Shown here one piece after another: positions 1-50,307 of a stretch of DNA of 64,000 nucleotides. Both the position numbers and the translations under genes were made by a program. Position 1 is the first letter of the stretch. Every line of letters begins with the position of its first letter. Source of the DNA: Dactylellina haptotyla (taxonomy: Eukaryota > Ascomycota > Orbiliomycetes > Orbiliales > Orbiliaceae); assembly GCA_031310005.1 (NCBI GenBank), contig CM062381.1, forward strand, positions 1,550,001-1,614,000, written 5' to 3'. Below the pieces are notes generated by a model, which was not told the DNA's origin, ran no database searches, and was given only the letters and a program-made list of their open reading frames with translations.

Positions 1-3000
1 ATCCAACGTTTCCTCACAGAACAGCCTGATCCAAATTTCGAGAATGTTATCGGATATAAGAACAAGAAGTGCTGGCCGCGCGACTCCCGTATGCGCTTAA
101 TGCGTCACGACGTAAATTTGGGCAAGGCTGCTTGGTGGCTACTGGCAAACAGGCTGCCTCGCAGTATTACAACCATCGAATGGGATGAGACGTTTGCTAG
201 CGTATACAGCAGAGATAACCCAAATCTTCTCTTCGCTATGTGTGGTTTCGAAGTCAGAATATTACCAATCTGCCGAAATCAGAACAATGAGTTCCCCGTC
301 AAAGACAGCGTCTGGTCTCTTGTAAACAATTCTTCGAAGGAACGAACTGCCCACGCCTTTTTGAGAGTGACCGAAGAAGACGTTACCAAGTTCAACAATA
401 GAATCCGTCAAATCCTCATGTCTTCGGGATCTACTACGTTCACGAAGATTGCAAATAAATGGAACACAAGTTTGATTGCCTTGTTCACGTATTACCGTGA
501 AGCCGCCATCTCAACTACTGAGCTTCTTGACACTATTGTCAAGTGCGAGAACAAGATTCAAACTCGTGTTAAAATCGGATTGAACTCGAAGATGCCTTCT
601 CGTTTTCCCCCAGCCGTCTTCTATACACCAAAGGAACTTGGAGGTCTGGGTATGATTTCCGGATCCCACATTCTTATTCCCACAAGCGATCGTCGTTGGT
701 CCAAGCAAACCGATACCGGTATCAGCCATTTCCGCGCTGGTATGACCCATGACGAGGATACCCTCATTCCAAATATCTTCCGCTACCTGTCTCCTTGGGA
801 AACGGAATTCATTGACTCCCAGAGAGTTTGGAGTGAGTACGCTATGAAGAGAGCAGAAGCCAACAATGCCGGTCGTCGTTTGACTCTCGAAGATCTGGAG
901 GACTCCTGGGACCGAGGTATTCCTCGTATTAACACTCTGTTCCAAAAGGACCGAAGCACGCTCGCTTTCGACAAAGGCTGGCGTGTTAGGATGATCTTCA
1001 AGCAGTACCAGATGATGCGTTCAGCACCGTTCTGGTGGACATCTGGCCGTCACGACGGAAAGCTCTGGAACCTGAATGCCTACCGAACCGACGTTATCCA
1101 AGCGCTTGGTGGTGTTGAAACCATCTTGGAGCACACTTTATTCAAGGCCACTGCTTTCCCGTCTTGGGAAGGTCTCTTCTGGGAACGAGCGTCTGGTTTC
1201 GAAGAATCCATGAAGTTCAAGAAGTTGACCAACGCCCAGAGATCCGGTTTGAACCAAATTCCCAACCGTCGTTTCACTCTGTGGTGGAGTCCTACAATCA
1301 ATCGTGCCAACGTCTATGTTGGTTTCGTCGTTCAGCTTGATTTGACGGGTATCTTTTTGCATGGTAAAATTCCAACATTAAAGATTTCTTTGATCCAGAT
1401 CTTCAGAGCCCATTTATGGCAGAAGATCCACGAGTCTACTACGTTCGATTTGTGCCAGGTTCTCGATCAAGAGATGGAAGCCTTGGGTATCGAGACTGTG
1501 CAGAAGGAAACCATCCATCCCAGAAAGTCTTACAAGATGAACAGCTCCGCCGCTGATATCTTACTCTTTGCGAATAACAAGTGGCAGGTTTCAAGACCAT
1601 CGCTGCTTCACGATACAAAGGACAACTATGAGACTACCGCCAACAAGTTCTGGGTTGACGTTCAGCTGCGTTACGGAGATTACGACAGTCACGATATTTC
1701 CCGTTACGTTAGAGCCAAGTTCTTGGACTACACGACCGACTCGCTCTCCATCTATCCCGCCCCCACTGGTTGCATGATTGCCATCGATTTGGCCTACAAT
1801 TTGTACGATGCGTACGGCAACTGGTTCCCTGGTATGAAGCAACTTATGCAACAGGCTATGGCAAAGATCATGAAGGCCAACCCAGCCTTGTACGTTTTGC
1901 GTGAACGTATTAGGAAAGGTCTTCAGTTGTATGCTTCAGAGTCGAACCAAGACTTCTTGAACTCCCAGAACTACTCGGAACTGTTCAGCAACCAAATCCA
2001 GCTCTTCATCGACGACTCGAATACTTATCGTGTTACTATTCACAAGACGTTCGAAGGTAACTTGACAACCAAACCTATCAACGGTGCTATCTTCATCTTC
2101 AATCCGAGATCCGGACAGTTGTTCCTGAAGATCATCGTGACTGCGGTTTGGGCTGGTCAGAAGCGTCTCGGTCAGTTGGCCAAATGGAAGACGGCAGAAG
2201 AAGTGGCTGCTCTTATCCGTTCGTTACCCGTTGAAGATCAACCGAAGCAGCTCATCGTCACGAGAAAGGGTTTGCTAGATCCTCTCGAAGTCCACTTGCT
2301 CGATTTCCCAAATATCTCCATCCGTGCGTCTGAGTTGCAGCTTCCTTTCCAAGCTGCGATGAAGATTGAGAAGCTGGGAGACATGATTTTGGCGGCTACG
2401 GAACCACAGATGGTGCTGTTCAACTTGTACGATGATTGGCTCAAATCGATTTCGTCGTATACCGCCTTCTCCCGTCTTATTCTCATTCTGCGTGCGCTCC
2501 ACGTGAACCAAGACAAGACGAAGCTTCTGCTCCGACCGGACAAGACGGTTATCACCCAAGAGCATCACATCTGGCCGTCGCTCAGCGATGAAGATTGGGT
2601 CAAGGTTGAAGTCAGCTTACGTGATCTTATCCTCAACGATTACGGAAAGAAGAACAATGTCAACACCTCTAGTTTGACCAGTTCCGAAGTCCGTGATATC
2701 ATTCTTGGTATGGAGATTTCCGCGCCAAGTCTGCAACGCCAGCAGGCCGCGGAGATGGACAAGCAACAGCAAGAGCAGAAACAACTTACGGCTACGTTGA
2801 CGGAGACGGTGAACGTGCACGGCGACAAGCTGTTGACATACACGACCACCCAGTACGAGCAGGGTGCCTTTGCTTCGAAGACCGAATGGCGGAATCGTGC
2901 CATCGCGGCCAACAACTTGCGCAGCCGGTCCAACAATATCTATATCTCTTCGGATGATCTCGGCGAGAGCAGCAAGTTTACGTACATCATGCCGAAGAAC

Positions 3001-3696
3001 GTGCTCAAAAAGTTCATCATGGTTGCGGATCTTAGGATGCAGGTGGCGGCTTATCTCTACGGCTCCTCGCCGCCGGATAACGATCAGGTCAAGGAGATCA
3101 AATGCTTTGTCATGGTGCCGCAAGTTGGCAATACCACCAGCGTGCAGTTGCCACGACATCTACCGCAACACGAGTACTTGACAAAGGAGCAAGGGCTCGA
3201 GTCGTTGGGATGGATTCACACACAGAGCGGGGCGGAGACGAGCTTCATGAGCGCGTACGACGTCACACAGCATTCCAGGTTGATGGCCACGCATAAGGAG
3301 TGGGACTCAAAGACCATCACGATCGATGTGGCGTTGGTTTCCGGTGCCGTGTCGTTGAGCGCGTGGGGATTGACACCGGGTGGATACGAGTGGGGAGCGC
3401 AGAATAAGGACCCGAGCGGCGGGGACATGCCTCAGGGATTCAAGATGGATTTGGGAGAGAAGTGCCAGTTACTGCTGTCCGACAAGATTCTGGGATACTT
3501 TTTGGTTCCGGAGAATGGAGTGTGGAATTACAGTTTTCTGGGGGCGCAGTTCAGCGATGGTGCGGAGAAGAAGCCGTACCATGTCAAGATTGACACGCCG
3601 TTGCCGTTCTACAACGACTTGCACCGGCCGTTGCATTTCCAGAATTTCAACGAGCTGGAGGACTTGTGGGTCGATCGGAGCGACAATTTCGAGTAA
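1..3696 (+). CDS. PRP8: Pre-mRNA-splicing factor Prp8, C-terminal half (5' end outside window)
   Basis: Prp8 is the central U5 snRNP scaffold that cradles the catalytic RNA core of the spliceosome in the nucleus. The reading frame is open from base 1 and runs 1231 codons to TAA at 3694-3696, roughly the C-terminal half of a ~2330-residue family member. The first ATG at 91 is internal, not a start. I recognise family-typical stretches such as [33 protein letters not shown]-like and [15 protein letters not shown]. Counting from window base 1, the RT thumb and linker come first, an endonuclease-like segment follows, the RNase H-like domain lies at about residues 659-895 ([14 protein letters not shown]), and the Jab1/MPN domain runs from about 993 to the end. 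The MPN region ends in a divergent tail. No intron and no intein-like insertion interrupts this half. COX4 follows 443 bases downstream on the same strand. Confidence 0.97.
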
Positions 3697-5235: not shown

Positions 5236-6087
5236 ACAGTAGCCTTTACCAACTATCTTGTTCCATGATTCTTTTTGTATAAAGCGGTGGCGGCAGTAGT
5301 GACGGTGGATTAGAGGTGAACGAGCGAAATAAATGTGAATATTTGTCTGTTCTGGTTTTTTTCTATAGTTTTATTTCTATTCTTTTGAAGTACCTCTTGT
5401 ATATGCTTCTCAAAACAAAAATACAAACGAAGTGTACAAACATAACCTATCCAATGCGATGGACCATCTGGTGACATGATGATATGATATGATATGATAA
5501 GATGTATCGTATTTACGGGACAATCACTTCACCTAATCTTGTCGAGAATCGGTGACTGTTCTTTGGGAATACGAGTGGCTTCCTTCTCCCCACGGTACCC
5601 GTCCCCTCGCCCGCCCCGAAGAGCAGACGGGAGGCCGGATATCAATCAAGTCAACCTGGCAATGTTGGGTGCAACTTATCAGGCCAAATTTCGAGGGTGT
5701 CAACTTTCAAAGGAGAGAAAAGGAAGAGAAGAGTTTTCAAGATGCGGTCGCGCGCCGGACCCAATTTATAGCCGGGATTCTCTTCAGAAGGGTTTTTTTG
5801 GGGTCTTGGCTACCTTTTTTTTTTTGATTTTCCTAGTAATTTTTTCTCGGGGCGGGTTGGCCCAAACGGGAAGGGCAGCAGAATTAAACGTGGGACCACT
5901 TTGGACGTCATCTCTTCGACCTCATCGAAACATTCGCACTCGAACAGCGGAGATTGCACTGTTGCTCCGCCTGCCGGGTTACACTGACCGCATCTGACGC
6001 TCGTTATACAGCTCCCGGAGACATTTCCAGTCCGAATCATCAAATCGAAGACCTCGCCTTCGACCGCTGGAGGCGGCAACCGGCCGA
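5236..6087. other. Intergenic between COX4 and TIM50
   Basis: The COX4 3' UTR occupies the start. A short GATAT-type pentamer repeat lies at about 5476-5501, and a T12-like run near 5813-5826 sits in the presumed TIM50 promoter. Open frames across 5494-5997 have no protein-family character and I do not call them. Confidence 0.6.
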
Positions 6088-7775
6088 ATGCTCGCTGCAA
6101 AGATGATGGCGGGGCGCCTGCTGCTGCGGACCCCGCCGCTGGCCTCGACGCCAATTACCTCGTCGCTCTCCCTCTCGACCTCTTCGAGCAGACTGTATTC
6201 CACATCCATACTGCGTGCATCGATACGAAACAAACAGACATGGCCCCTCCTGCCGTTATCACAGATCGCAAACCGAAGAACCTACGCTACAGAGAAGGGC
6301 CCTAGGGACCAAGCTCCTGAGTCTACTACCAGAACCCGTCGTCCCATGTACTCGTCACTAGATGACATCCCTCAGTCCAAAGATACACCGGAACCAACTG
6401 AAGCTCCAGAAGGATCGGTTCCCAAATTCGATCCCCGTACCCTTCTCGACCAAGGCATTCCACCCACCCCAGACCAATACAATACCACCTTGTCCACCAA
6501 ACCTGATCCCACCTCCTCAGAACGTTCCCGCGACCCCGTGAAGGCTTCACAATCTCGAGGATCCGGTGGTGGAAATCGTGAATATGTCTCTTCTACGGAC
6601 CGTAAACGAGACCGTCTAGCTTCTGCCGTCCTCATTGGCTTCCTCGTCGGTGGCATCGGTGGCGTTGTCTTCCTCGGCCGCAACTGGGAGACCCAAGAGG
6701 AGATTGATGCCCATCCGGAGGAACCGAACGGCTGGGGTCTCATGCTCTTCTACAACCGTGTCTACGCCCGCCTGAACGAAGTCCTGGACTACTACAACCT
6801 CCCCAACGGCGAAAAACTCCTCCCGGATTTCACACGAGACACATACCGACCTTACACGCTGGTGATTTCGCTCGAAGACATGCTGGTTCATTCCGAGTGG
6901 ACCCGTGAGCACGGCTGGCGGACGGCAAAACGCCCAGGCGCCGAATACTTCCTCACCTACCTCTCCCAGTACTACGAAATCGTCATCTTCACCTCCCAAC
7001 CAAACGTCATGGCGGGCCCGATAGTCGCCAAACTCGACCCCTTCCGGATGCACCAGCAGCTGTTCCGCGAGGCGACAAAGTACAAGCGCGGGAAATATAT
7101 CAAGGATCTGACGTATTTGAACCGCGATCTGTCGAAAGTGATCATGCTGGACACGAAGCCCGAAGCCTGGACCGACCAGCCGGAGAACGCGATCAAGATG
7201 AAGCCGTGGAAGGGGAACCCGAGGGATAAAGAGCTTGTGGCGTTGATTCCCTTCCTGGAGTTTATCGCTGCGATGGGCCATGTCGACCTACGTGAGGATT
7301 TGAAGACTTTCCCGGAAGGGTCGCACATTCCCACCGAATTCGCCAAGAGGGATGCTATTGCCCGGGCGGAGTTGAGGAAGAAACTCGACGATGAGAGGAA
7401 AAGCAAGAAAGGGGGTGGTGCTGGCGGTGACTTTTTGGCAAGTCTGTTAGGGTTGAAACCCACTCAGCCGAAGGAAGAGAAGCTACCGCAGGATTTGGTC
7501 AGAGAGAGGGGACAGCAGTGGTACGATGAGGTTACCAGGACGTTCAAGGAGCATGGAGCCGAGTATCTGGAGGCAGATAGAAAGGCTCAGGAAGAGATGA
7601 TGGCCGGAATGAAGACCAGTCTGTCCAAGATACTTACAGAGGTAAGCTTTCAATCTAATATCACAGCAATTAACTTTTTTATGTTAACTTGATTACACAG
7701 GGAATGCCACAACCACAATTCCCTCCGTTACCAGAACAGCAGCAGCAGCAGCCGCAACCTGGCCAAAAGAAATAG
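6088..7775 (+). CDS. TIM50: Mitochondrial import inner membrane translocase subunit Tim50
   Basis: Tim50 is the presequence receptor of the TIM23 complex. It is anchored in the inner membrane with its main domain in the intermembrane space. Two exons, 6088-7641 and 7701-7775, give 542 residues; the intron is phase 0 (GTAAGC...ACACAG). A Ser/Arg-rich presequence (first ~60 residues) is followed by a disordered Pro/Ser/Thr segment, then a transmembrane helix at about 177-196 (SAVLIGFLVGGIGGVVF). The FCP1/NIF-type fold lies at about 254-400. The phosphatase DxDxT signature is degenerate (SLEDML at 261-266), as is usual for Tim50, so the domain is a binding module rather than an enzyme. The C-terminus carries a short Q5 run. 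ATG at 6088 has in-frame alternatives at residues 6 and 7. The gene is convergent with the sestrin-like gene. Confidence 0.95.
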
Positions 7776-8607: not shown

Positions 8608-11600
8608 TCAGTACCTCGACTCCCTGTACTCGCAAACTGCCTTGATCCCATACAACAGCTCGCCCATAAACCTTGCCTGCGTCGCCAACAGCGCCATGAG
8701 AACCGTATCCTCACTCTTCAATCCCATCCCGACGCCCTTCCAATCTCTGATACTGACCAGCTCCGGCTGCTCGCATATCCGCCGCAAGAATACCCGCGCG
8801 CCCTTGCGCAGGTAAAACTTGATATGGCTGTACGAGTAGTCGTCCTTCTGGATACCCAGCAACCTCAGCGAGTAAAACCACACCGCCTCCCGAAGCGGCT
8901 TGACATCCACGACGCCACCGCCGTTTACTCCATCCTTTGCCTGTTGGCCATCTGGTTGCGGTGGGTGGTGGAACGTTTCGATGGGGGACTGCAGACGCGA
9001 ATTTGGGGTGTAGAATGATTCGCCGTGGTGGAGGAGATGGGCTGAGGGCGGTTCTGCATCGAAGATTCCGAATTCCGGTGGTGGATGGCCGATGATGCTG
9101 CCCACGCGGCTCGCGCGGCCGCTGCCCGGGGTTTGGAGGTACCCGCCTTGCTGGTGGTGATTATTTTGGCTATGATGCTGAGATTGGGATGATTCTTCGT
9201 CGGCCATATCTTCGGTGATTCTTTTCACGGAGCGGAAGTGGTTGTCGAGGATGTCCTCGAGGCCTTCGACGTATTCACCGATCACCTCGCACGCGTGGCG
9301 TTCCCAGTCGAATTCCTCCATGGGGAGGAAGGAGTATTCTTCGCTGTTTAGGTTGAATTCCTCGTGGAACCCGGAGTCGTTTACACCTGCGATACCGGTT
9401 TTGGAAGGGGATTGGAGGAAGCGGTTGTTTTCTTCCGAGAAGACGTTAACGGGAATCTGTTCGTTTAGGGATTTCGCAGATGCTTCAACGAGGGATGATG
9501 TTGATGATGAAGGGGAGAGGAAAAATTCACGACCTGCGCCGAGTGGGTATTGCGAGATGCTGGAGACTGGGATGTAGCTTCCCGGGGCAGATAGGGATGT
9601 GGCGAGAGCTGGAGGGAGGGCGTCTTCAGCTGTGACGCAGTCTTCGAAGGATTTACGACGTTTTTGCAACTTCAGATATCGCTGTTCGCCGTTACGGAAT
9701 GTTTGAGCGAGCGGGGAAGCGTCGCTAGATGCTGGAATCGAGCCAGTGGGTGTCTTGAGCCACTTGTCCGGGGAGCCTGAACTGCCTTCCTCATTTCCTG
9801 ACATGCTCATTTGTTGGCGTTTACGAGTGAGTAGGGAGATTCCGGGGGACGGGGTCCGTGGCACTTCGAGTCTCTTCATGTCGTTTGAGTGGTTTTCCTT
9901 GTCGGCGGCATCTCTGGGGTGTTTGGATGGGATTGTGAGGTATGGGATAATAGATAAACCAGTGTTTTTGATCGAACCGATAGTGCCACCGGGAAGATCT
10001 ACTTCAGGTACTAATCCGCATGCGAGTGCGAAGCCGGATTGTGCGTGGTAGTAGGAAAGAATACACATCGCTAGCACGACCTCAGAAGTAGACCAGTTGT
10101 CGGACGGGTCGTCGGAAGGAGAGTTCGATCCCTTGATGAGTTCCTGCACGTCTTCGTGAACAAGCCTCCAAGGTTGGTGTGCCAATAAGGTATTGAGTTT
10201 TGCGATTCTTTGGAGTTTCCTGGGAGCATATTCCAATCCTCGAAGCCATGTCTTGTTACCACCGTAGTCAAGGAAAGAGCGCGAGAGTAGCGAGATGTAG
10301 TACTGGCATTTGTGTTCGGCCGCAGCAAGAATACCGATATACAGCCTCCAGGTTCTCGACAGTGCGCTCCCCGGTCTGCTGATCAGGCCATCTACGGTTT
10401 CCATGTTATCCCGCGCAAAGTTCGGATAAAACGATAGGATCTTGTTCAGGTTTGTAACCCTCCCGTAAGACTTCCAGGCCATTTTGTGAAGAGCATGAAC
10501 TTCGTGTGATGCAGGTTTCGATATCATCCCACTCTGCAATGTTCCCTGGGAGGTAGAATGCTTTCTTATCCGTCGTTCTCGTACCGCTGCTGGTTGGCTG
10601 AATATGTCGTTCCCGGAAGGTGGAGATAACGGGGTCCCACGATCAGAGTTCGATCCTATAAAACCGAGAGATCGGTCGTAGCGTCTATTGTTCCTATACG
10701 ACATGCTATTGCTTACACCACGCCCTCGCGATCTCGACCGTCCGTGGAACGTGTGAAACGAGCGACCCGGGATCGTGATGGACCCTGTACCGGACATATC
10801 GTTGTCGTTGATGGGGGATATCGGAACCTCGTCCTCATCTTCGGAGTTGTCTTGTGGATCATTTGTATTATTGCTATCCGTCCTCATCATCGCGTTGAAC
10901 TTGTTCAGGCCGATAGTCTCATTCATTGGGATCAACTTTGACGGGCCCATCGTAACAGGTTCCACCAACTGAATACCGTTGTTCTGCGATTTCATTAGTT
11001 GGCTTCCTGATCTATACGTAAAAAGTGATTCCAGTATATAGAAGCACTTACCGCGACCTTTTTGAGAACGGACCGACAGTTTACCCGAACATCTTTGTGA
11101 GGACAGTCCATGGAAAGCCGTAACAGTGTTAGGTAATAATTATCCAGATTCTTCTTCATCTCGTGCACCGTCAGCACCTCATCCTTCAAATCTTCGAGCC
11201 GCATTCGATCATCCGGACCCAACACACTCTCGAAAAACCCTAGAACGAAAGTACTGTACGATATCGTAAACGTCGGCGATATGAAATCCGATCTTTCGTC
11301 ACTATCGTCTCCGAAGCCTGAATCGTACGTCGGGGTAAGCGGTACGTCTATCGGACTTCTACTCGCAGAAACTATCCTTGGGTCGGAATCCCCATCGAAA
11401 TCGTCGAATACATCGTCAAATTCTAGGCCGAGCTTTGATGACGACTCCCGCTTTAGATTTCTATGCGCTACGAAACTGGCGCGAGGGCTATCGTTTAAGG
11501 CTTGGTGGAGGGGTCGGAATCCGCCTATCGGTGTCGAGTGGCCTGGGATGTCCTTAGTGTGGCGTAGATAATAGCGGGTCCATTCCTCCACGAGAGAGCC

Positions 11601-11807
11601 GATGGCTCCCAGCACAGCTAATCTTGTGTGTCGGTCTTCTCTATGGAGGCAGCTAAACAGCAGGTTGCGTGCGAACGAGCAGGATGGTGTCTCAGCGACA
11701 TCTTCGTATTCCGCTATTTTTTGTGTTAGCTTAATATGTCTGACGCTTGTTCGAACACAAGGTAGCCGCCATCGTGGAACATGTTTCTACTCACAATGCT
11801 TAGACAT
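8608..11807 (-). CDS. Sestrin-like protein (PA26/sestrin fold) with long disordered insertions
   Basis: Animal sestrins bind GATOR2, and SESN2 senses leucine for TORC1 control; their N-terminal domain also resembles alkylhydroperoxidases. I assemble three exons: 11795-11807 (only 13 nt), 11052-11713 and 8608-10983, giving 1016 residues. Introns of 81 and 68 nt have branch sites GCTAAC and CTAATG. Sestrin-specific blocks are ILAAAEHKCQYY, NKTWLRGLEYAPRKLQ, NTLLAHQPWRL, LSYYHAQSGFALACG, and a C-terminal part including GIQKDDYSY and ARFMGELLYGIKAV. Aligned with human SESN2, R923, D939-D940 and E983 match R390, D406-D407 and E451. C451 and Y453 match C125 and Y127, but L458 replaces H132. Ser/Gln/His-rich insertions (about residues 570-770 and 820-920) explain the length, about twice that of animal sestrins. 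An ATG at 10995 in the third reading segment falls inside intron 2 and is not the start. Confidence 0.85.
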
Positions 11808-14800
11808 GACGAGCCGGAAGTATATATATCTAGTTTTTGGAAAGCATAGCAATGTAGTTTAAGACGCAAGATACAATGGTTATGTTCTTCTTTGTTTAAA
11901 AAAAGTGTTCGGAGGGGTGGGGTTAGATATCTGGCCAGCAGATCGTGTAGCGTGCGGTGGATAGTTTATATGGAACGAGTAACTTTTTAAAACTTCTTGG
12001 TGCGGCCGTGAAAGAAACAATGTGAAAATACTGTAGAGAGAAAAAAGTTTCTCCTTAGATTGCGTGATAGTTCTCAGAGATTTGAAAGTAACATTGTATT
12101 CGTTTGGCAAGCGTGGTTCCCGGCCTGGTACTTGATCTCATCATCCAGCTGTTGGGGTCTGAAACTTTGACGACGACGGGTATGCCAACACAGTAGTAAT
12201 CTCGAAACAGCGACTGGCGGATATATAGTACGAGTATTAGCGTCTGTGGTGGTTATTCATAGAACCAGTTGGGCCAGCTCAGAATCGACAAGGCTCAAAA
12301 CCCGGTGAGGCTAGCCTGTCGGTTGTAAGATATTGAACGGGGAAAGGTTAAGAGAAGTGGTCAGGAAATTTGCAGACTGGCCAGGGACGGAAGAGTTCAT
12401 GTTAATATGCAATCCCGTACGTATGCAGTGCAACTACACTCACAGCGGCCAGCGCAGGGGCCAACAGCTGCTGAGTGACGACAAAACGCAAGAACGCGAA
12501 AGCACAGCAACTGGCTTCTTCCTTTCCCTTTTCCTTTTTTTTAATTTTTTTATTAATGCATGCAGGATGGGAAATTTTTTGCCGGGGTCTTTCAAGATCC
12601 TTCTCGCAGCAGAAGCCAATCGGGGGACATAAAACCTACCAAATAAGACCCAAAAAGGCGTTGAAAGGCCCGAGCCAAAGATTGTGGTTTTGAAGAATGC
12701 AGAGGCTGAAAGGCTTTCTGTCGATCTGCAAACCCGAGGAACTTGGTTCGACTTTTTGTAGTTTGCTTTTATCAACTTTTCTCTCCAAAGCAGGTCGGAA
12801 AGGGTACTTTTTACTCTAGGTGGAGCTTGGTGGCCGATTGCACAATACCGCAGGGCTATGGCTTTCTTTTGTCTCTCTTACTCTTCCGACCCCGCAAAAT
12901 GCCTGGTGCCTGTGCGTGTGTCCACGGCTGTTTCTGTTTAAAAAAAGAATTTAACCCAACCCAACCATCCGGGCTTCCCGGCAACATGCGCCAGATGGTG
13001 AATGCCAGTGCTAGGGGTCTGCAGATTGTCGTGCTCCAAAGGAAAGAGCAGTGAGAAACCTGAAGGGATTTGCAGAGTACCAGAAACTTAACACCGCCAG
13101 CGACAGGCAAGTTATATTTGCGAAAAAAACTAATATTAAAATTTTGAGAAAATTTGGTGCTTTGAGGGGTCAGCTATCCAAAGAGAAAAAGTCGCTAACT
13201 GGCAAGAGCTTCAGGATTCGCTATGACGAAGACCAGTTTCTCTCCAGTTCCTTGCTTGTGGTGTCCTTAGCGACATTCATGCGTGGGGGCCAAGATTCCT
13301 GTTTGACCACAGAGACTAGGTTGCTTTTTGGGTGTGCCATTTTCTTTCCTCTTTTTGAGGTCACACTCCCCAAGTGTGAGATACGAGAGCATGCGATAAG
13401 GAGGTGATTTTGAGCTGTCCCCTATCTAACACTAAAGCTGGAGGGCCAGATATCTTGAGCATGAAAATTTTTCACATCTCTCCTGGCCTGTTTGCTTGCC
13501 CAATAAATTAATAGTACCCTCGACTATACGGACGGTGGAAGGGAAGGATACTGCCATGAACGGCTGATCCTACCGCCGCTTGGTAGGTCTTATCTCGCAT
13601 CTTTCTGGCCTCGGTTGACCTGCCGAGTCGCTCGTCGACCCATTTTCTTGGGAATTTGAACCCTAAAGAAGAGATCCGAACAAGCATAGAAGAAAATTTT
13701 TTTCTTCCATTGGTTCACCCGTGCAATCTTGGATCCAAATGAACCTTATTCTCTGGTGCGATCTGGGATCGACCCACTGAACAAGCAAACGAGAGTGTAA
13801 AAAAAACTCTTTGGCTTGCCTTTCACGGACAACACCGAGGTATCAAGATGCGGGAAACAGAAAGAGCGAATGATCACACTCCCACTGCCCACCGTCTGAG
13901 CGACCTCTCAGGCACGGACGCTAAAAAAACCAGTGGTGAAAGAATGAGAGAAACTTTTTTTCCTGTTCAAGATTGCCTGCCCTGGTGCCAGTGAAGGGCC
14001 AGGCGCGACGCTTGCCATGGGTTGACCCTGTTAGCCCCGCAAATACAACTTTCCAGGAGAAAAAGGAACACAGCAGCAGAGGTGGGTACTTGCAGGCATG
14101 CACAATGCAAGTTGGAAAAATCTTCCATCCAAGTGATCTCTCGTCGCGGAAGCCCTGCTCTGGTCAGCAATGGGTGAGAGCACATCTACCCATCGACCAG
14201 GTCCAGGCTCGCGAGTAAATTCTAATCGAGTCGAAAAGGTGGGACGAACCAAAAAACAGTGTGGTGACGGCTTTCTGTGAGTGTTTTCGATCTAGCGGTC
14301 GGGCTCCCTGGACGGGCTGACGGCACGCGGGTGTACCTAGTCTAAGAGCCAACATCGTTTCAGAGCTTGGATGACAAGTGACCTTCCATTCGGCATGGCA
14401 TCGAGAATCGAGGATAGCTCCCGCTTCGGACGCTATTAGCTTCCTAGACCCGTATAGTGCACCACCGTCACAAACGTCATTCAGGAAGAACGGGGCCTGG
14501 CTTCGCAAAATATGCTTGACAAGATGGCTGATGACCAGCGTAGCGTCTGGGCTAGACGAGACTCCAGACGCATTGACCAAGCAGCACAAAGAATTAATTG
14601 TCCGATGACATCTCGAAGCCCGGCTCGAATGAGGTTTGGACGGAGCCCAAAAGGTGTTTGTTGATGCGAAGTCACCGCCGCCCCAGTTAACAGCTTAGCG
14701 AAGGGAACTTGGGACGGGCATGTTTCGCTAAAGCCAAGCTCCCATTCTTAGAAAAGAGAGCTAGGGACAAAAAAAAATAAAAAATAGAGGCCTCGACGTC

Positions 14801-14834
14801 CAATTTGCCAAATATCTCCGAGCTTGATCCCGCG
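11808..14834. other. Long divergent intergenic region (sestrin-like / NDUFAF3-like promoters)
   Basis: About 3 kb separates the 5' ends of two divergently transcribed genes. It holds many A/T homopolymer runs (for example near 12535-12555 and 13797-13810). Open frames up to 141 codons occur (for example minus 14164-14589), but none shows a domain, a Kozak-like start with splice support, or biased composition. I see no tRNA or other structured RNA. Confidence 0.55.
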
Positions 14835-15719
14835 ATGTCGGCAGCCTTCCAAGAGCTCGCGGCTCTCGCGAGACCTCTCATTCGCGTGAACAGTCGCCGA
14901 CTGGCAGCCTATTCGGAGGTTACAACACCACGAATACCACGGTTCACCTTCCAATTTTCCAATCCCCGACGCCACCAGTCTCGGCAACCCCGTCCTTTTG
15001 GTAGATCGACAATCACCTCGAGATACGCGGTGAGATCGTTCCATGCCGCTACCGTTCTATCTACGGATCGGAAATCTTTCCCACAGGATGAACCTCCGCC
15101 CAAGGCAGGTCCTAAGGAAGGAGGAAATGATCCCAATGAGGTATTTACAGACATGAACGTCCTCTCTGGAGTTCCGCCTCCAGCTAGTGCGGTTGAGATC
15201 GTTTACGACAATGGTTTTCTCCTTAACAACGGTATGAGATTCATGGGCAAAGATGGGATCATAATTGTCCATAATGAGGCCTTCAATTGGCTCTCCCACA
15301 AAGCTGCAAGGGTTCACAATGGTGTTTTGGAATTGGACGATGAGCTATGGGGTATATTGGACGTCGTTGCTCCAAAGCCAGGTACGAATATAATAACCAC
15401 CACCCTTCTCCGAGGAAATGGAGGACAAGAAGAAGAATGCTGCTGTCTAGCCGTTATCGGACAACATGCAGATTTGGGTCAAAATATCTAAAAATGCTAA
15501 TCGGTTTTTATTATTGTGCATCTGGTAGAACTGCTGGTTCTAGGTACTGGTGCCCGTTCTATTCCAATATCCCCAAAGACGAAGAACCGTCTGCACAACC
15601 TGGGAATTCGCATCGACAGTATGGATACGAATCATGCAGCATCCTCGTATAATCTGCTGGCAACTGAACGCCCGGGTCAGATCATAGCTGCAGCTCTTCT
15701 ACCTGCTTCGTTCCACTGA
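14835..15719 (+). CDS. NDUFAF3: NDUFAF3-like mitochondrial complex I assembly factor (DUF498/Mth938 fold)
   Basis: NDUFAF3 works with NDUFAF4 in early assembly of the NADH:ubiquinone oxidoreductase peripheral arm inside mitochondria. Exons 14835-15381 and 15529-15719 join in phase 1 across a 147-nt intron with branch site TGCTAAT, giving 245 residues. I start at the first in-frame ATG, 14835; the frame is open slightly upstream but without ATG. The N-terminus is basic and hydroxylated (MSAAFQELAALARPLIRVNSRR), typical of a matrix presequence. The Mth938-like domain begins near VEIVYDNGFLLNNG. Diagnostic stretches are ELLVLGTGARSIP and LGIRIDSMDTNHAASSYNLL, and the chain ends shortly after. 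It is divergent from the sestrin-like gene upstream. Confidence 0.9.
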
Positions 15720-17348: not shown

Positions 17349-19476
17349 ATGCTAGACCAATTGCCAGCAGAACTAATTGACTGGATATTTGAACAGGTAC
17401 ATATTATATTATACCAACCTTGTCTTCTGCAGATCTGATGTGCGGCCTCCCATATAGAATGTTAGCTAACTCTTTACGAACGTGAATTTTTGAAATGTTA
17501 TTTATGACAATAGCTCCCAAGGAAAGATATCGCAAACATCGCGAAATGTAGCAGAATACTACAGACCCTCGCGACTCCCGCTCTATACCGATACCTAGTC
17601 GTCCCCTGTGATCCAATTTCAGTTGGGCGCTATAGAGACGGCATCGTAGAGCGCAGGGCTGATTGGAATTGGATTAAACAGGTGGTTGATCCAAAGACAA
17701 ACTATGCGCGACATATCCGGGCCATTCGTGTAACAAATACGAATTCTGGGCCACTTCGTTATAAAGATGAGCCAGCAACACCTAAGGATGAGCCCTCAGT
17801 TGTCAGTCGGCAAGTATCTGCTCTCCTAGATGCATGCACCGGCAGAGTAAACGAGATTAAGTAAGTATATGTATCATATCTGAAATGGAAGGGAAATAAT
17901 TCAAGAAAACTGCGGATGCCGATTTATAATCGAAATATAATTTTAAACGTTTGGCTGATATTGGTTGCTGCAGCTGGTGTGTGACAGGTGAGGACGGAGA
18001 AGCATGCCCTACCCCAGTGCTAAGGAAAATATTACAGATGCAGTATCTGTCTTCACTATCTCTTGCTCTGCATCCCTCACACTTAGTCACATCTGGGAAA
18101 GGTGATACGGTGTATCAGTTAGCAGAGAACAGTATGCCGGCACTCCGCAGACTCACTCTTGAAATCGAATGGCATCTTCACACCATACAAGCTCATTACA
18201 TACTAAACGCTACCCCGAACCTGCAAAAACTTACATTACGGGGTGCTCATAAACTCTACAACGGACAAAAAGAGAGGCTCTTTCGGCGAAACTTCAGCTC
18301 TCACGCTTCGGATATCGGCTTCGACGGCAAAACTGTTGAATTGGAGCATCTGCTTGAATTTTGTGTTTTTAAGAATATCGCAAAACTCAAAATTAGAAAG
18401 TTGAAACTGTTTCGCTTCGTGCTCAGTGAGCAGATGATGGGTTACGTACAACCGGAGGAGCTTCGCTATCTACAGATCCAGAACTGTCAAACTCCTAGTG
18501 GAACTCTATCGACTTTACGACCGGAGAAAATGCAGCTGCACACTTTTCGGTTCATGTACAAAAATTTTAGACGTGATTACCAGATATATTTCGACTTCAT
18601 AGGCCAACTTAAACCTGGCCTGCAGCAACTAATCTGTGGAATAGTTGTGATGCACCGGTTCTATAATCCGGAGGTTCAAATAGAACTAACCCGCCGATTG
18701 CCCCTGCCTTTTGGGTTTGCTGAAAAACATGGAGATACCCTCAAATATTTTTGCTATCATCTTGGAGGTAAAGACGGTCCAACGTATTTACCAGACCAGG
18801 ATTCGGAAGACATAGCCCCAACAGGATTGTGGAACCTAAGAGAACTATCTCTTCCATTGAAAACTCAAAAAGTATGCTCCTCTCCATCTTATTAAAGCCC
18901 TTGGCCAAACTATGGAGAACAAAAATTAAACAATTTGCTATATCATAGGCCATTAACATAGTGCAACCTGACTACGCGGAAGGAGAGGAATGGAAATCCA
19001 TACAACAGCCCGTATCCCTCACGGTGAATAAATTAGACGGCTTGAATTTTTTATACAGCCTAACATTCTCGCCAATCTCGGACCACTATCGGATAAGCGT
19101 TCTCGATACCATTCTGAACTACGTTGATTCAGGCTTCATACAAGATATGGAATCCGGTTACCCGAAACCTAGAGACAGAAGGAATTCTTTGATGGTCAAG
19201 TATGTTGAAGAAGCCCGTCTTCTCCAAGACTTCGTTGGAGAAGTCGCAACGTTCTACGGGTGCCAGTTTCCGACTGCCGCTGGGCCACCAACGTTGAAGT
19301 GGATTTCGTTTCTGAGCGGGTATCAACTCTCCGAGGATAAGCGATTCGGTTATAAAGTCGAGTGGACCTTTGAAGAGAACTCGAGCATCTCTGAAAAGTA
19401 TACCCCGCGTGTTATTTTTGTGCGCGATGCAGATACGCAAATGGAATTGGAGGGTCTAGAGCTGAGGTACGTATAA
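17349..19476 (+). CDS. F-box protein with a long LRR-like/unassigned C-terminal region
   Basis: F-box proteins bind Skp1 and act as substrate receptors in SCF ubiquitin ligases. Four exons (17349-17396, 17514-17860, 17974-18871, 18949-19476) give 606 residues with consistent phases 0, 2 and 0. The F-box starts at the first residues (MLDQLPAELIDWIFEQ) and continues after intron 1 with LPRKDIANIAKCSRILQTLATPALYRYL. The rest has alternating hydrophobic and charged segments such as MPALRRLTLEIEWHL, LQKLTLRGAHK and LWNLRELSLPL, typical of degenerate fungal leucine-rich repeats. The predicted substrate is unknown. Intron 1 splits the F-box at the same point and phase as in the genes at 24747-26730 (-) and 39312-41190 (+). 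Acceptor choice for intron 1 is the least certain junction. Confidence 0.82.
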
Positions 19477-19916
19477 ATATGAGCCCCAATACCTGAAAGC
19501 GGTGTTCAACAAAGCTAATCTATGTTATTCTTCAACACAAGGACGCCCAAGATAGACCTGGGAGGTGCACGCCTCTTCTCATAAACCCACTGATCTGACA
19601 TATTCCCATTTCTCTGTCGTACATCTTCATGTAATTGTCCCTCGCCGCTGTGTTGGGCTGCAAAATACCACAATCGGGACGTGAGGCTGGGCGATTCCAA
19701 TTCTCGGGCCCGCGCTTCCCCGCAAATTAGCTGACGCACTCCACTGCAATGGATCCCTGTTTCCCGTTCGGCATGCCATCGCATCTTAGCACAAAGATTT
19801 GATATTGAACTCGCTGTCCGAGTCTGAGATGCGCCTTGTTTCCTTGTATTCGTAGCGCGGGCGTGGGCCATCTTCTTATATTATTGTGATTTTATACCTC
19901 TCCCAAGCTTCTCGCG
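19477..19916. other. Intergenic upstream of GH76 gene
   Basis: This holds the F-box gene 3' region and the short GH76 promoter. No further gene is evident. Confidence 0.55.
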
Positions 19917-21653
19917 ATGCATTGTTTTGGTTTTCGCTTGCGTCCGCATCTATGCATCCTGCTGGTTACCGTCTTTGCAGCCCCGTCGCTGGCGACCAAC
20001 CACCACCATCACCACCATAATGGACCCCAGCACCAGCTGCCTTCGATCGCACAGCATCGTCGGAGTGGAATAGAACTCAACTCCACCGAAATCCCATTGC
20101 CGCTCCGATATCTCATCCACTCCTTCGAGACATTGCAGGCCAGGTTCTTCTCCGACGAGAGCGGCGACTACCCGGCGGCAATCGACTGGACGGCCGCCGT
20201 GATCCAAACCCATGCCGTCAGCTCCCTCCATAGCATCCTTCTCTCCCCACTGCCCAAGAACGAGACCTTAAACATCATAGACATCTATTTCCCAGATATA
20301 GTCTCCTTCTACGATACCCAAAATGTGGGCTCGCTACGTTTCCAGGCCTTCGACGACATGCTCTGGGTCGTGCTCGGCTGGCTGGCCGCCGTCAGATTCC
20401 TAGATGCGTACCACAACATCTACCCGGAAGACTACAGCAAGGATTTCTACAGCCACAGAAAGGACTTCGCTATGCGTGCCCGCGAGTTCTACTTTTACGC
20501 CGAAAGAGGCTGGGACGAGCTCTTCTGCGGTGGCGGGTGTATCTGGAACCCGAACTTGAATCCCTACAAGAACGCTATCACCAACGAATTATTCATTTCC
20601 GCGAGCGCGCAGATGTATACCACCTTCCCGCCGGAGTATAACCCTGACTACGACTCGTCTGCGAGGGATCCGGAGGATGGAAGAGATATTTCGTTCCTAC
20701 AGAATGCCGCGAAGGGATACGCTTGGCTCAAGGCGACCAATTTCACGAATGATGCTGGGTTAATAATCGACGGGTTCCACATCAGCAGTTATTGGAAACG
20801 TAAGTGCGATGAGAGGGACGAGCAGACGTATACATACAACCAAGGCGTTGTTTTGAGCGGGCTTCGGGCGTTGTGGGAGATGACAGGGAAGGAAGAGTAC
20901 CTTCATGACGGGTACGAACTTATACATAATGTGATCAAGAGTGGAGGGAAATTCGGGGAGATGGTGCGGAAGGAGATTCTGGAAGAGCACTGCGATATAT
21001 TCGGTTGGTGTAATCAGGATGCGCAAGCTTTTAAGGGTATTTTACCACTTGCGTTTGACATAATAAAATCGAAAACTAGGGAGATTACTAATGTGTAGGC
21101 TATAGGTATCTTCTTCCACCATTTCACAGCATTCTGTTCAGTACACGCGTACACGGGGACTTGGAAGTCCGCTGAGGAGAAGCGTGTTCCTGGGCTCGAC
21201 GCTCATCTTGAACGGTGCAAGACGTTCTTCCCGTTCGTTACGAAGAATGCAGAGGCGGCGTGGTCTACGCGAGACGCTTACCGGTCGGTCTTCGGTATGT
21301 GGTGGTCTGCGCCGCTATATGAGAACGATCCTAGATTTAAATCGAAGCTTCGTGATGGGAGCCTCGATTTGATGCGTGATCCCGAGGCTATTGATTTTAT
21401 AAATACCGTAAGAGGGGAGGATTGGATGCTAAGTGCTACGATGGCCGAGTTACGGCTGGGAGAATCAGGAAAGGTGGATTGGGAGAAGGGGAATCGGGAA
21501 GATAGCCTGGACTCGATGGTCCATACCAACCGACGTGGAGGGGCAGGAGGAGATTTGAATGATAGATTTAGGGGACGGACGGTAGAGACCCAAACGGGCG
21601 GAGTTGGAGTTATGAGGGCTGCTTTAGAAATTGGTATATTATTTGAGGAATAA
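19917..21653 (+). CDS. Secreted glycoside hydrolase family 76-like protein (alpha-1,6-mannanase type)
   Basis: GH76 enzymes cleave or transfer alpha-1,6-mannan, and fungal members act on cell-wall mannan. Exons 19917-21036 and 21106-21653 join in phase 1 across a 69-nt intron with a TACTAAT branch site, giving 555 residues. Residues 1-26 form a signal peptide (LLVTVFAAPSLA), directly followed by six consecutive histidines (29-34). The adjacent acidic pair D146-D147 in FDDMLWVVLGW is the likely catalytic pair. Family blocks follow: GCIWNPNLNPYKNAITNELF, TYNQGVVLSGL, and, across the intron, FKGIFFHHFTAFC. It ends GVGVMRAALEIG, like other family members, and I see no GPI signal. The assignment to the family is good, but the exact substrate is inferred. 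It is convergent with the 2H-phosphoesterase gene. Confidence 0.87.
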
Positions 21654-23284: not shown

Positions 23285-24553
23285 CTATTCCCACTTTCTT
23301 CGATACTCCTCCTGCATACACTTCCGCAAACATAGGGGCGTCCAGCGATTGATATCCGGTGCTCTGCACGCCTCGTCCACCTGATCGGGCCCAACGGCAA
23401 GGATGCCGGTGTCTGGAAATGCCGATTTTGGTACCCTCCCATCGACTATATCAATATACCTTACTATCCAACGGAGCCGTTCTTCTCCACTCGCGCAATT
23501 CTCACATACCCATTGTCGACATTTAACACATCTCCGAGAATTAATACACATGATACACCGCGCGAACAGTGGCGGATAACTGCCGTCACGCAGGGGGGTC
23601 GGCCGACTAGCTTCCCTAGCGGAACCGTTAAACGGCGGTGGGGAGAGGAGAGGTAGCCAGTGCGCGGGTGATTTCCCATAGATAGCCGGCCCCTCAGGCG
23701 ACGTCCCGCATCCCATGCACCCGAATCCTAAACCTATATTCGCAAGCTCTAAAAGATTGTCGTGATCCGGGCCACGGCAGAGCATGCCGTCCACTTGAAT
23801 TTTCCCCTCTGCGGCTTCGAGTACCTGGATCCATTTGTCCTGGATAGCGGTCCATGGCACGAGCGGTTGATGGTACATTTTGCCGCTTGGCAGGTACCAT
23901 TTTTCTAAAGGCGCATCGGCCACAGGTTGTGGGAGATATTCTAGCAGCTGTTCTCTCTGTTCTCTTTGCTCCCGGAATTGATATGTATTTTCCGGCGGGC
24001 CAAAAATATATAGCGCCTGTAGCTTAGGAAACCCCTTCGGACGACCGGGTTTTACCGCATCCCGTATTATTCTTGCAAGATCCGAACGCTTGTGTTCCAT
24101 CAATTTTCTGACACCGCGGACGCTTAATATCTTAACATTGTACTTCCCACTCGTGTCGAGAATGATATCGCTGAATATATCGACGGTTACGGCAATGCCA
24201 TCCAATATCAGAGTTGAAACATTCTTCAATATGTGCTGCTTTTCAAGCTGGTAAAAGATCCCTAGTAGAGGACCCGAGTAAAACTCTTCCTCCGTGAGAG
24301 CTTCGTCCATGCGCTGCGAGCGCCATGATATGCCACCTACGTCTAAGGGTATCCCGCCCTCTAATTTTGCGAGCGCGAGGGTGGTGAAGTCTAGACGTCT
24401 GAAGCTGTTCGGGGAAGACCTGAGCAGATTGTGGAATGGGCGAGAGGTGGAAGAGAGGGCGAGGAGGGAAGGTATTGGGATATGGGGGATTATTAAATCG
24501 AATATCAAGGCATTCGAAAGCAGATCTATCAAGGATGGAGGTAACAAAGACAT
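23285..24553 (-). CDS. F-box protein with Cys-rich C-terminal region
   Basis: The F-box is at the N-terminus (LIDLLSNALIFDLIIPHIPIPSLLALSSTSRPF), followed by LDFTTLALAK, so this is a probable SCF substrate receptor. The product is 422 residues from ATG 24553, single exon. The C-terminal third has two cysteine groups: GCMGCG near residue 283 and CIMCINSRRCVKCRQWVCENC near 335-355. The spacing suggests a small zinc-binding module of no named type. The frame extends upstream to an ATG at 24718, but a TATATATAT tract overlaps that ATG and the added sequence lacks domain character, so I choose 24553. Unlike the neighbouring F-box genes, no intron splits its F-box. It lies head-to-tail with the F-box gene upstream on the same strand, which ends 193 bases away. 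Confidence 0.8.
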   Translation of the reverse strand: MSLLPPSLIDLLSNALIFDLIIPHIPIPSLLALSSTSRPFHNLLRSSPNSFRRLDFTTLALAKLEGGIPLDVGGISWRSQRMDEALTEEEFYSGPLLGIFYQLEKQHILKNVSTLILDGIAVTVDIFSDIILDTSGKYNVKILSVRGVRKLMEHKRSDLARIIRDAVKPGRPKGFPKLQALYIFGPPENTYQFREQREQREQLLEYLPQPVADAPLEKWYLPSGKMYHQPLVPWTAIQDKWIQVLEAAEGKIQVDGMLCRGPDHDNLLELANIGLGFGCMGCGTSPEGPAIYGKSPAHWLPLLSPPPFNGSAREASRPTPLRDGSYPPLFARCIMCINSRRCVKCRQWVCENCASGEERLRWIVRYIDIVDGRVPKSAFPDTGILAVGPDQVDEACRAPDINRWTPLCLRKCMQEEYRRKWE

Positions 24554-24717
24554 CCTGACCGAGGTGGAACGAGATGGCCGGTGGAGGTTAAAGCTACCTC
24601 GGCGCTCGCAGCAAGAGCCAACACGAATGATATAGCGAAAATACAACACACGATAGTCTCCCTTAAGCTCGAGCTCTTTACTTCTAAACTGGTTTCGATA
24701 GGTTGGTAGGGGACACA

Positions 24718-24726
24718 TATATATAT
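24718..24726 (-). promoter_or_regulatory. TATA-like tract
   Basis: An alternating TA tract lies about 165 nt before ATG 24553 on the minus strand and is a plausible core promoter for the Cys-rich F-box gene. The short gap to the upstream gene leaves little room for other promoter elements. Confidence 0.35.
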
Positions 24727-24746
24727 TATTTGGATTTTGAATTTCT

Positions 24747-26730
24747 TCACCGCTCGTCTTCTCTCCCGTAAAACTGGTACACAGCAGTTGGAGCTGTGAA
24801 CCACGGCCTATCAGTTACTATATCGTAGTAATCTGGTGGTACATCCGTATCCCACAAGGCCGCCTCCACCCAGTCGACCTCCAATTTCGCAGCTTCCATT
24901 TGCTTGAGCGATGACTGTTCAACAACTGGGTGAAACTTGGCTCGGCCTCCCTCGACGTCCGGGTCTTTTTTTACCCAATTAACTGAGAATATTCTCATTT
25001 CACGAGCTTCGTGCCCCACGATGATAAATCGAGCGCGTGGCTGACCGACCACCATCTCACAAATATGCTTGGCTATACAGTCCGCAACATATTTAGTGGC
25101 TACACTCCCCGCAAAGTCTACAGAGCCTGGTGTCTCGATTTCGTAGAATATGTTCGGGGTGGTAACGACTTGTATTGTCCGCAACCGTTCCACAAGTTGG
25201 ATTCTCTCCGGGCATTTTTCGACATGGCAAGAATCTACGAGCCGAGCCTCCTATTTTAAACACACTCGTCAGCTTTTCAAGAAGACATGCTACATCTTCT
25301 CGTTTCTAAAAAAGAAAGAACATAAGCATGCAACCTACGTAATCTGAGCTCCACCGGATGTCCCTGGTCGTCGATATCGGCCACGTAATCGTCATGCTCT
25401 CCAAATGGACATCGTTTTCCATAACGGCCTGCCTCCAAGCACTGTTCCAATCTGGGTGGTCGCCTGGAGACTGTTCAAGAGTGACATTGAGATGCCGTAA
25501 CGTTTCTTTCTGCTTGGAGATTAGTCGATGTACGCCAAGAGTCCAATACGAATTCTCATCTAGCAGCTCATCCGGAAGGGCTCGCCTGATATAGAGCTGG
25601 AGAGATTCTAATCCTGGAGAGAGGTTTTCGAGGAATGCAGATGGACCTTCCAAATTCACCCCGTACCGCCCACTGTAGAAAGTGAGTGCCAACCGTCGAA
25701 TACAGAACGGTTGATCCTCACTGACATAATCAGGTAGCAGCGGGGGGGAAGTTGCGAGGGTTGTGGAGAATGAGATCCGTAACTGCATAGGAGCGGCCTG
25801 GAGGAGAGGACAAGACCGTCCCCGATGCGCCGTTGTATATTTTGAGCCGTCGGACAGAAGAGGTTAAACATGGGTATAATGAGTTCTCGCATATGGAAAA
25901 TACGTCCATGCTTCCGTCAAAATCATCATACAATGACCTAAAGAATAGATCGCATTCATCGAGGGCCTCCGTAGATGTCACAATGTGAAGGACGGCGGTG
26001 ACCGAGCGTAGGGTTAGGAGACCTCGTGCGGTAAATTTCCGCAGAGCGGGGAATAGCAAACACTCTAAGTTCTCGTTGTATCTTTCGCCAGTTTTGGATT
26101 GCTGGTGGTCATCGGAGAACTGTAAGTCTAGGACCGTCAATGATTTCGATTGGAATGGGAATTGTTGCAAAATGCTGTGGGACAAAATGCTCGATTCGCA
26201 GCCGTCGTAGTATCTATATATTTATTTTTTAACCCAGGCAATCTACAATGGAGAAAGAAAGGAAAAGTCGCTAGACTACTTTTCCAACATACTTGAAGGT
26301 TTGGAGGCTATCTGGTGGGAGTGTAGTCAATAGGTTCGACGTGAGATCAGATAATATAATGGGTACATCCATGCCGTATTTTGGTGAGCCGTTGCGACGG
26401 CATTTAAACATTAGCCCTTCCTTACATAGGACGAGCAAATGCTTAATATATTTTGGACCAGACGGCCCCCCAAGTGTTAAAATTTTACTCCATGGTTCGG
26501 GAAACGAGGGTATTGGATCGGTTCTTTTGGCTCTCAGGACGATTTTTTGGTAGATGATTCGCTTGCAGCGCTCGTTGAACCGGCGGTTCACGCGAGCCAG
26601 CATTGCAAGATCATGGCGGCGAAGCTACGTGGGTTAGCACGCTTAACAGTTTGAAGATGCGCTTCAGCTTGTTCGTTCCACACACCCTTTCTACGATATC
26701 TTCCACTATCTCTGGTGGGAGAGTATCCAT
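24747..26730 (-). pseudogene. F-box/LRR-like gene with a one-base frameshift in a C7 run
   Basis: The exons are 26686-26730, 26293-26624, 25339-26213 and 24747-25250, with introns of 61, 79 and 88 nt (branch sites GCTAAC and GCTGAC). Exon 1 MDTLPPEIVEDIVER joins LRRHDLAMLARVNRRFNERC to form an F-box. LRR-like stretches follow (LTVLDLQFSDD, VRRLKIYNGASG, IRRLALTFYSG, LESLQLYIRRALP, LRHLNVTLEQSPG). Within exon 3 the frame breaks at the seven-base homopolymer 25742-25748. Upstream the frame reads into TGA a few codons later, while the downstream sequence continues in the +1 neighbour frame with good LRR-like character. Removing one base of the run would make all downstream phases agree (about 584 residues). 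Either a real inactivating indel or a sequencing error explains this. I label it a pseudogene only provisionally; all four exons otherwise look intact. Confidence 0.7.
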
Positions 26731-43126: not shown

Positions 43127-43351
43127 AAGCTATGGAATCCGTCTAGAATATAGAGATTTTCGTTTCTTTACCCTTCAGATATTTTGCGAATATCGCAGTA
43201 TCAGTCACTCATTAAGTTTTATCTATGCTTTTCATTTGAATATAGTCATTCGTTAATTGCAATAATTCGGTCCTTTCTTTAATCACTCCTTTAGCATTGC
43301 GTTTTTTGATATTTATGTTTTACACTTAGACGTCTTAATACAGTAATCAAC

Positions 43352-48900: not shown

Positions 48901-50307
48901 ACTTGTTGTCGGCGCCGAAAAGTAGGTGTGTCCGTTTCGTAGATCATCTACTCTTACAGCTCTGAAAGATGCGAATGCCTTGTCGTATGTGAACGTCCAC
49001 GAGGAATTATCGCCGTGGTGTGTCAACAAGGCGGCATGCGAGATGTCCCGCGAAGTGGTCGGGAACAAGATTTGCGTCGTCCACATTTGAACCAACGATT
49101 CCGCTGCCACCATTACTTCCGAAAAGAATGGAGCGGATATAACCACCGTAGCAGGGCTTCCGGACAAGGTCGATCCAATCAAGACCGTGCCGTCTAGTGA
49201 AAAGCAAAGGGAATCGACCAAGTCACATTTGACAGCGCGCTTCTGATCGAAACCAGGTGCGAGGGAGATGACCTCCACGCCGCCATCGTACGCAACAGCC
49301 AAGACGGTGCCGTCCGGAGCCAATGCGATTGCTCTCGGGGCATTGTCGAGATCTAGCGACTTGACACGCTTTACTCGCCTACCCGTAAGATCGTAAACGT
49401 TAACTTTGTGCTCGGACGACAGCACGGCCATAACAGATCCATCGTCGAGGATAGCAGCACTGATCGGGCGCCGCAAAATTTTCAGTTCCCGTCTGATCGA
49501 AATCGGCAATTCTTTGGATGGAGTGGCGGTGTCGATCACAACCATCCGTGACGACGAGATGGCAAGCAGGTATTTGCCCTTCGGGGAAAACTCATATTTG
49601 AACACTTCGCCTCCCGGCACGGCGGCCGAGGAAGACAAACTTCTGTGTATCAGCTGGATTTCCGTGGTCTCCGGTCGCAGCATTGATTCGAAGAGGCCTC
49701 TCCGCGAGGCGCGGTTGAATTGATGTATGAGAGAGGTGAGGTTTTCGGGTGTATCTTCGATGTCCTTGGCTGTCACAACCCCGCATTGGGCCAACTGCCG
49801 AGAGTAGAGCAGACAGGATCGCGAGGCCTGGTACCACGGAGAGTTTATAAGGGTGAGCGAGTCGAATTCGTTCGGCGAGCAGAAATAGAGGATCCTGGAT
49901 CGCAGGGCAACACAACGGTCAGCACAATGAAGCAATATAATCACTCTGTTCAGATGCGGGAACATGACGCCGAAAGAAACACGCCGAATACAGCAACCAT
50001 CTCCCGGGGAATATTAGGAAGGACGGTGCTGTCAGCGGACGTGGGTAGCATCCCGCGGGCGGGGGACTCACTGTTGCATGATCTCTTTGGGGAGGCGGGA
50101 AAACGCTGACGGGCCCTCCTGCCGGGGGCCTTTCTCGCAGCTCTTCCGCGAGGAATCGAGGTGTGTTGGGGATGTGTTGCTGAGGAGGTCGTTCTCTGCC
50201 GACATTCTCCTTTTGCCCTTCTTGTCGATTGAGCTTCGCGGCGGCAGCTGGTCCTCCGCCTCCATCGTCGACGGCGAATGTACGCTTCCCGGCGGTGACG
50301 ATGACAT
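45928..50307 (-). CDS. Large F-box protein with beta-propeller-like domain and long disordered C-terminus
   Basis: Exons 50072-50307 and 45928-49894 give 1400 residues. The intron (177 nt, phase 2, branch TGCTGAC, acceptor GATCCAG) restores a continuous F-box, SRLPKEIMQ joined to QILYFCSPNEFDSLTLINSPWY. A nearer acceptor at AACAG would interrupt the F-box, so I reject it. Residues ~160-520 show WD40-like blades (FKYEFSPKGKYLLAISS, RAIALAPDGTVLAVAYDGGVEVISL, DSLCFSLDGTVLIGS). From ~560 onward the chain is low-complexity Ser/Pro/Gln-rich with scattered basic motifs, ending in a Lys/Arg-rich patch (SMKKKKGWGRGKGKDK). An SCF receptor role is inferred from the F-box; this architecture is common in filamentous ascomycetes but poorly characterised. 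Confidence 0.85.

Follow-up and report, generated by a model that had tools for sequence, protein, structure and literature searches.

Human SESN2 (PDB 5dj4, 5cuf, 6n0m, and 9dx1) contacts leucine through T374, T377, T386, L389, R390, W444, F447, and E451 (PMC8533411); the salt bridges and the hydrophobic contacts to leucine are listed again in PMC6412019. The triple variant E451Q/R390A/W444E serves as an apo-locked form of the protein (PMC12136191). Six further residues, S190, D406, D407, D346, L351, and D364, contact GATOR2, and an AlphaFold2 model together with mutants places S190 near Seh1L and assigns D406/D407 to WDR24 (PMC10938194). The sestrin fold is related to that of the helical bacterial AhpD peroxidases, which share the redox cysteine with sestrins (PMC11429811).

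Published accounts of sestrins in fungi are in conflict. According to a 2024 paper, homologues of the sensors were lost in fungi (PMC10957897), whereas sestrin is present in early-diverging fungi and counted there as a member of the TORC1 pathway (PMC11836306), and Yarrowia lipolytica is reported to possess a sestrin, with Basidiomycota described as lacking them (PMC11429811). Fungal sestrins as such are already in print in these last two papers. By their description, they are among the closest known counterparts of our protein. Magnaporthe and Blumeria, both filamentous Dikarya, have an empty sestrin field in Table 1 of PMC11836306. PMC8262921 cites sestrin in its reference list alone, and the accessible text of PMC8534245 names no fungal sestrin. 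Our literature search returned no title or abstract on a sestrin from a filamentous ascomycete, with supplements, figures, and most subscription journals outside its scope.

We analyzed a window of 64,000 nucleotides from Dactylellina haptotyla (GCA_031310005.1, contig CM062381.1, positions 1,550,001 to 1,614,000 of the forward strand). A previous sequence-only reading of this DNA had described a product of 1016 residues that aligns with sestrins over both helical domains. When the gene was rebuilt from its splice sites (Table 1), we obtained exactly 1016 residues, with the match in one frame. The model is predicted from sequence and starts with a putative exon of only 13 bases. Both introns, of 81 and 68 bases, are of the GT-AG type, and each carries a CTAAC or CTAAT branch-like site. 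The third exon encodes both sestrin domains in one open frame of 843 residues. The PA26 profile (PF04636), which the sequence-only reading had proposed as a check, scored 251.9 bits against this frame and exceeded its cut-off of 29.4 bits by a wide margin. Three in-frame stretches covered profile positions 18-196, 283-349, and 349-444, in this order, and a profile search of the 39.8-Mb genome detected a single PA26 locus. All five distinct PDB sequences matched by phmmer at E values up to 1 were Sestrin-2, with human SESN2 as the best match (E 1.1e-39); PDB entries 9lvj and 9lwf contain Sestrin-2 together with WDR24 chains. The sestrin motifs are retained in part: LAHRPW reads LAHQPW (5/6), WSLAEL reads WSTSEV (3/6), and DDYDY reads DDYSY (4/5). 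Residues W171, W189, S190, E193, D406, D407, Y408, and Y410 of SESN2 are identical in the fungal protein. Judged by these alignments, the gene belongs to the sestrin family as a genuine fungal relative of the animal proteins, and the homology is firm. It adds one more member to an already known family. SESN-A patterns searched once against the prokaryote genome contigs and once against the viral contigs gave 47 and 21 matches, respectively, none confirmed by tblastn; short peptide patterns of this kind miss distant relatives.

Table 1. Coordinates of the sestrin-like gene and its parts, numbered from the first base of the window
Feature	Position	Strand	Basis
Sestrin-like gene, 1016 aa	8608..11807	-	exons 11807-11795, 11713-11052, 10983-8608; splice sites read, spliced, translated
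N-terminal part, residues 1-390 (SESN2: 65 residues)	10489..11807	-	without Pfam family above cut-off; best PDB match E 0.082, residues 6-225
SESN-A-like domain, residues 391-558	9985..10488	-	36% identity to SESN2 66-225; PA26 positions 18-196, 159.3 bits
C451-x-Y453 ... L458 (SESN2 C125, Y127, H132 positions)	10285..10308	-	alignment
W522 S523 T S E526 (SESN2 WSLAE, including S190 GATOR2 contact)	10081..10095	-	alignment
Low-complexity linker (SESN-B position), residues 559-782	9313..9984	-	length and composition; PA26 match restarts near residue ~760
SESN-C first part, residues 783-815 (W785, H788, D805, F808, T815)	9214..9312	-	PA26 283-349; marginal phmmer stretch
Lid-loop segment, residues 816-916	8911..9213	-	T815-R923 spacing, PA26 alignment
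SESN-C second part, residues 917-1016	8611..8910	-	ungapped to SESN2 384-478, 28/95 identical; PA26 349-444
R923 = SESN2 R390	8890..8892	-	alignment
DDYSY 939-943 = SESN2 DDYDY 406-410	8830..8844	-	alignment
G977 at SESN2 W444 position	8728..8730	-	alignment
E983-D984; SESN2 E451 faces D984, not E983	8707..8712	-	alignment

Like human SESN2, the fungal protein contains both helical halves and keeps C125, Y127, S190, D406-D407, and R390. Unlike SESN2, which has 480 residues, it has a longer N-terminal part, linker, and lid loop, and H132, W444, F447, E451, T377, T386, and H86 are changed. The N-terminal part exceeds that of SESN2 by ~325 residues and the inter-domain linker by ~108. The distance from T815 to R923 is 108 residues, compared with 16 in SESN2; the lid loop thus contains ~92 extra coding residues of low complexity. 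We considered a missed intron as the source of this insert and rejected it: within exon 3 we detected no intron of 45-400 bases that preserves the frame and combines a consensus-type donor (GT[AG][AGT]G[TAC]) and a [CT]AG acceptor with a branch site. The lid region is devoid of branch-like sites; weaker donors do occur there, the scoring being confined to donors of the consensus type. The Pfam search for known domains in the N-terminal part yielded at best a sub-threshold match (E 0.028) in a 79-aa open frame other than that of the gene model; an NCBIfam scan of residues 226-1016 gave no match. S/T-P sites as a signature of phospho-control were too weak and were dropped as evidence. The lid segment has 3 (1.5 expected; reached by 345 of 2000 shuffles), the linker 7 (4.0 expected; 167 of 2000), and the N-terminal part 9 (4.3 expected; 37 of 2000). 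The AlphaFold2 prediction of residues 391-1016, run without relatives, had a mean pLDDT of 35.7 and a pTM of 0.21 and is not usable as a structure model.

The face that SESN2 presents to GATOR2 is partly preserved. The SESN-A alignment equates W189, S190, and E193 with W522, S523, and E526, and the ungapped phmmer alignment of SESN2 384-478 to residues 917-1011 bore out the proposed equivalence of D406-D407 and D939-D940, at the same spacing from R923. Four of the six GATOR2 contacts (S190, D406, D407, and D364) are kept (P 0.06-0.13); D346 is replaced by Arg and L351 by Val. When the whole motifs WSLAEL (3/6) and DDYDY (4/5) were counted together with D346, L351, and D364, 8 of 14 positions were identical (P 0.03-0.09). 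Restriction to the best-conserved motif neighbours raised this to 8 of 11 (P 0.003-0.015), a choice that favours the docking reading. Along the C-terminal stretch, identities amount to 13/28 for SESN2 384-411, which runs from R390 to the acidic hinge, to 4/23 for 412-434, to 2/21 for 435-455, which forms the pocket wall and includes W444, F447, and E451, and to 9/23 for 456-478. The docking face therefore appears to be kept somewhat above background and the pocket not; given the small number of positions, this difference is suggestive and falls short of proof.

For the leucine pocket, the sequence-only reading had claimed a retained amino-acid-sensor signature. Its match of R390 with R923 agrees with the ungapped alignment. 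The match of E451 with E983 does not: the ungapped register puts D984 at E451 and S450 opposite E983, so that a shift by one residue would be needed. For SESN2 445-478, the BLOSUM62 score is +47 unshifted and falls to between -7 and -42 when the sequences are slid by 1 to 4 residues; given only 2/21 identities in SESN2 435-455, the register around the E451 site rests on the flanks. The alignment agrees with the claim that T377 and T386 are not kept: T386 corresponds to V919, and no Thr follows three residues after T815. Further changes, which the sequence-only reading did not mention, are W444 to Gly977, F447 to Leu980, H454 to L987, and H86 to Tyr411. The TYNT of the SESN2 lid is replaced by TEDM, and the short lid loop sealed on H86 is absent. 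L389 aligns with L922, and T374 is probably kept as T815; phmmer aligns this region only marginally, and the PA26 profile recognises the segment around it. In total, 3 of 8 leucine contacts are identical (L389, R390, and the marginal T374), for which P is 0.42-0.60 at a background identity of 29-36%. By this measure of the alignment, retention of the leucine contacts is no higher than background identity. Two of the three apo-lock positions (E451, R390, and W444) differ in the fungal protein, which also departs from the non-metazoan majority in PMC11429811 at E451 and T386. The sensor signature is unsupported because the E451 match is off by one, W444, F447, T377, T386, and H86 are lost, the lid carries the insert, and the retained contacts are at background level. 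Leucine coupling of the fungal sestrin appears doubtful.

On balance, we consider it probable, if only by a little, that the fungal sestrin is an inhibitory ligand of SEACAT (GATOR2) and hence a brake on TORC1, with control probably not exerted by leucine capture of the animal type. Docking on the Sea2/WDR24-Seh1 propellers would use the SESN-A face around S523 and the acidic D939-D940 hinge, and the docked sestrin would release SEACIT/GATOR1 and lower TORC1 activity. Several changes make animal-type leucine capture seem improbable: the pocket floor, the residue that binds the ammonium group, and two threonines of the lid differ, as does H86, the partner of the lid, and the lid loop is long and of low complexity. 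Likelier means of control would be a ligand other than leucine, modification of the loops, or the protein level. Docking, the effect on TORC1, and the loss of the leucine response are all three what we infer from the residues described above. A bolder version is tentative, and we give it somewhat less than an even chance: the docking faces are kept, the leucine pocket is dismantled, a long and disordered segment with a regulatory role has taken the place of the lid loop, and the TORC1 brake has been rewired from leucine to another input, all in a type of fungus said by some reports to lack sestrins. If this version holds, sestrins bound GATOR2 before they sensed amino acids, and the sensing is a layer that can be detached. 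A filamentous-ascomycete sestrin that retains the main docking residues but differs at most leucine contacts would be a natural separation-of-function case, and it bears on the question of whether sestrins started as GATOR2 ligands before leucine sensing.

Several observations speak against a brake without leucine control. With R390, L389, and probably T374 in place, and with D984 able to bind an amino group, some amino acid may bind; moreover, GATOR2 positions are kept only modestly above background, and WDR24/Sea2 is not among the genes identified. The protein could be a genuine SESN2-type amino-acid sensor, as the sequence-only reading suggests. The carboxylate would then be held by R923 and the amine by D984 rather than E983, and the pocket, in remodelled form, would accept leucine or a different amino acid, upon which SEACAT is freed. 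The exchange of Glu for Asp is conservative, and non-metazoan sestrins as a group are also variable, with Thr at T377 in 4.2% and E451 in 80% (PMC11429811). We nevertheless regard such a sensor as unlikely in view of Gly at W444, Leu at F447, Val at T386, Tyr at H86, the missing Thr after T815, the ~92-residue lid insert, and a contact count not above background. Still less likely, in our estimation, is that the sestrin domains belong to a scaffold that acts mainly through the long N-terminal part and the low-complexity loops and retains only residual SEACAT binding. This reading draws on the 715 of 1016 residues that lie outside the aligned sestrin domains, but these extra regions match no known domain and are mostly of low complexity.

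The redox question turns on the C125-Y127-H132 triad, which is incomplete. As the sequence-only reading had it, C125 and Y127 correspond to C451 and Y453, and Leu458 occupies the H132 position; the alignment supports all three assignments. Its description of a "broken peroxidase site" holds for the leucine but not for a special break, since the state without histidine is the non-metazoan norm: among 213 non-metazoan sestrins, H132 occurs in 1.9%, C125 in 90.1%, and Y127 in 91.5% (PMC11429811). Leucine at this position, being usual outside metazoans, thus does not mark the site as specially broken, nor does it disprove redox activity. The protein might then act mainly as an AhpD-type alkylhydroperoxide reductase that relies on C451 and Y453 and dispenses with the histidine. 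Its Cys and Tyr do lie within a well-conserved AAAxHxCxY stretch, and the cysteine is widespread among non-metazoan sestrins despite the rarity of the histidine. Mutants of SESN2 at the H132 site were less active, however (PMC11429811, citing the 2015 SESN2 structure paper), and an enzyme would have no need of the conserved S190 and D406-D407 positions. We therefore hold an enzyme of this kind to be highly improbable.

An inhibitory SEACAT ligand calls attention to the pathway genes of the same genome. We found matches for NPR2 (321.7 bits, with one TAA in the first stretch, possibly an intron), IML1/DEPDC5 (395.9 bits), MIOS (90.2 bits), and TSC1/hamartin (66.5 bits). A gene that resembles Sea3/WDR59 and encodes WD40 and RWD domains is located on contig C1 at L011:3383-5485 (+). 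Its zf-RING_16 match scored 37.8 bits (cut-off 27.4), one of 14 control genomes having given a match below cut-off, and the best PDB matches of its neighbourhood were Mtc5 (382.9 bits) and WDR59 (201.6 bits). The partner tally thus comprises NPR2, IML1, MIOS, and WDR59/Sea3; the direct partner WDR24/Sea2 is not among them, and Seh1, Sec13, and NPR3 were outside the search. KICS2 and CASTOR1 had no match in the genome, which is not evidence of absence, as the controls were equally without a match. Of the sequence-only proposal of a TORC1/SEACAT-linked nutrient sensor, the link to SEACAT remains plausible, given S190, D406-D407, and the four partner genes, whereas the sensor signature is unsupported.

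Other genes of the window were recorded alongside. The frame at 5998-7692 (+) encodes a protein with an NLI-interacting-factor phosphatase domain (150.8 bits), which we take to be probably TIM50. A glycosyl hydrolase family 76 match lies at 19890-21095 (+) (78.7 bits), and a DUF7165 open frame of 1361 residues at 45931-50013 (-) (474.7 bits). Four of the ten open frames scanned had no Pfam match at E 0.001, namely 14781-15488 (+), 17930-18892 (+), 23288-24814 (-), and 43310-44992 (+), with 236, 321, 509, and 561 residues, respectively. At the window edge, an open frame of 1231 residues (1-3693, +) encodes the C-terminal part of PRP8 with PRP8 domain IV, JAB1, and PROCT. The PDB matches of this fragment suggest a filamentous ascomycete: 9l5r scored 2333.8 bits, the long human chains 2078, spp42 2040.7, and 3jcm and similar Prp8 chains ~1810; the last domain alone scored 389.6 bits against 5m59 and 284.2 against 4kit. 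We take 9l5r and 5m59 to be from Chaetomium thermophilum, 4kit from human, spp42 from S. pombe, and 3jcm from S. cerevisiae.
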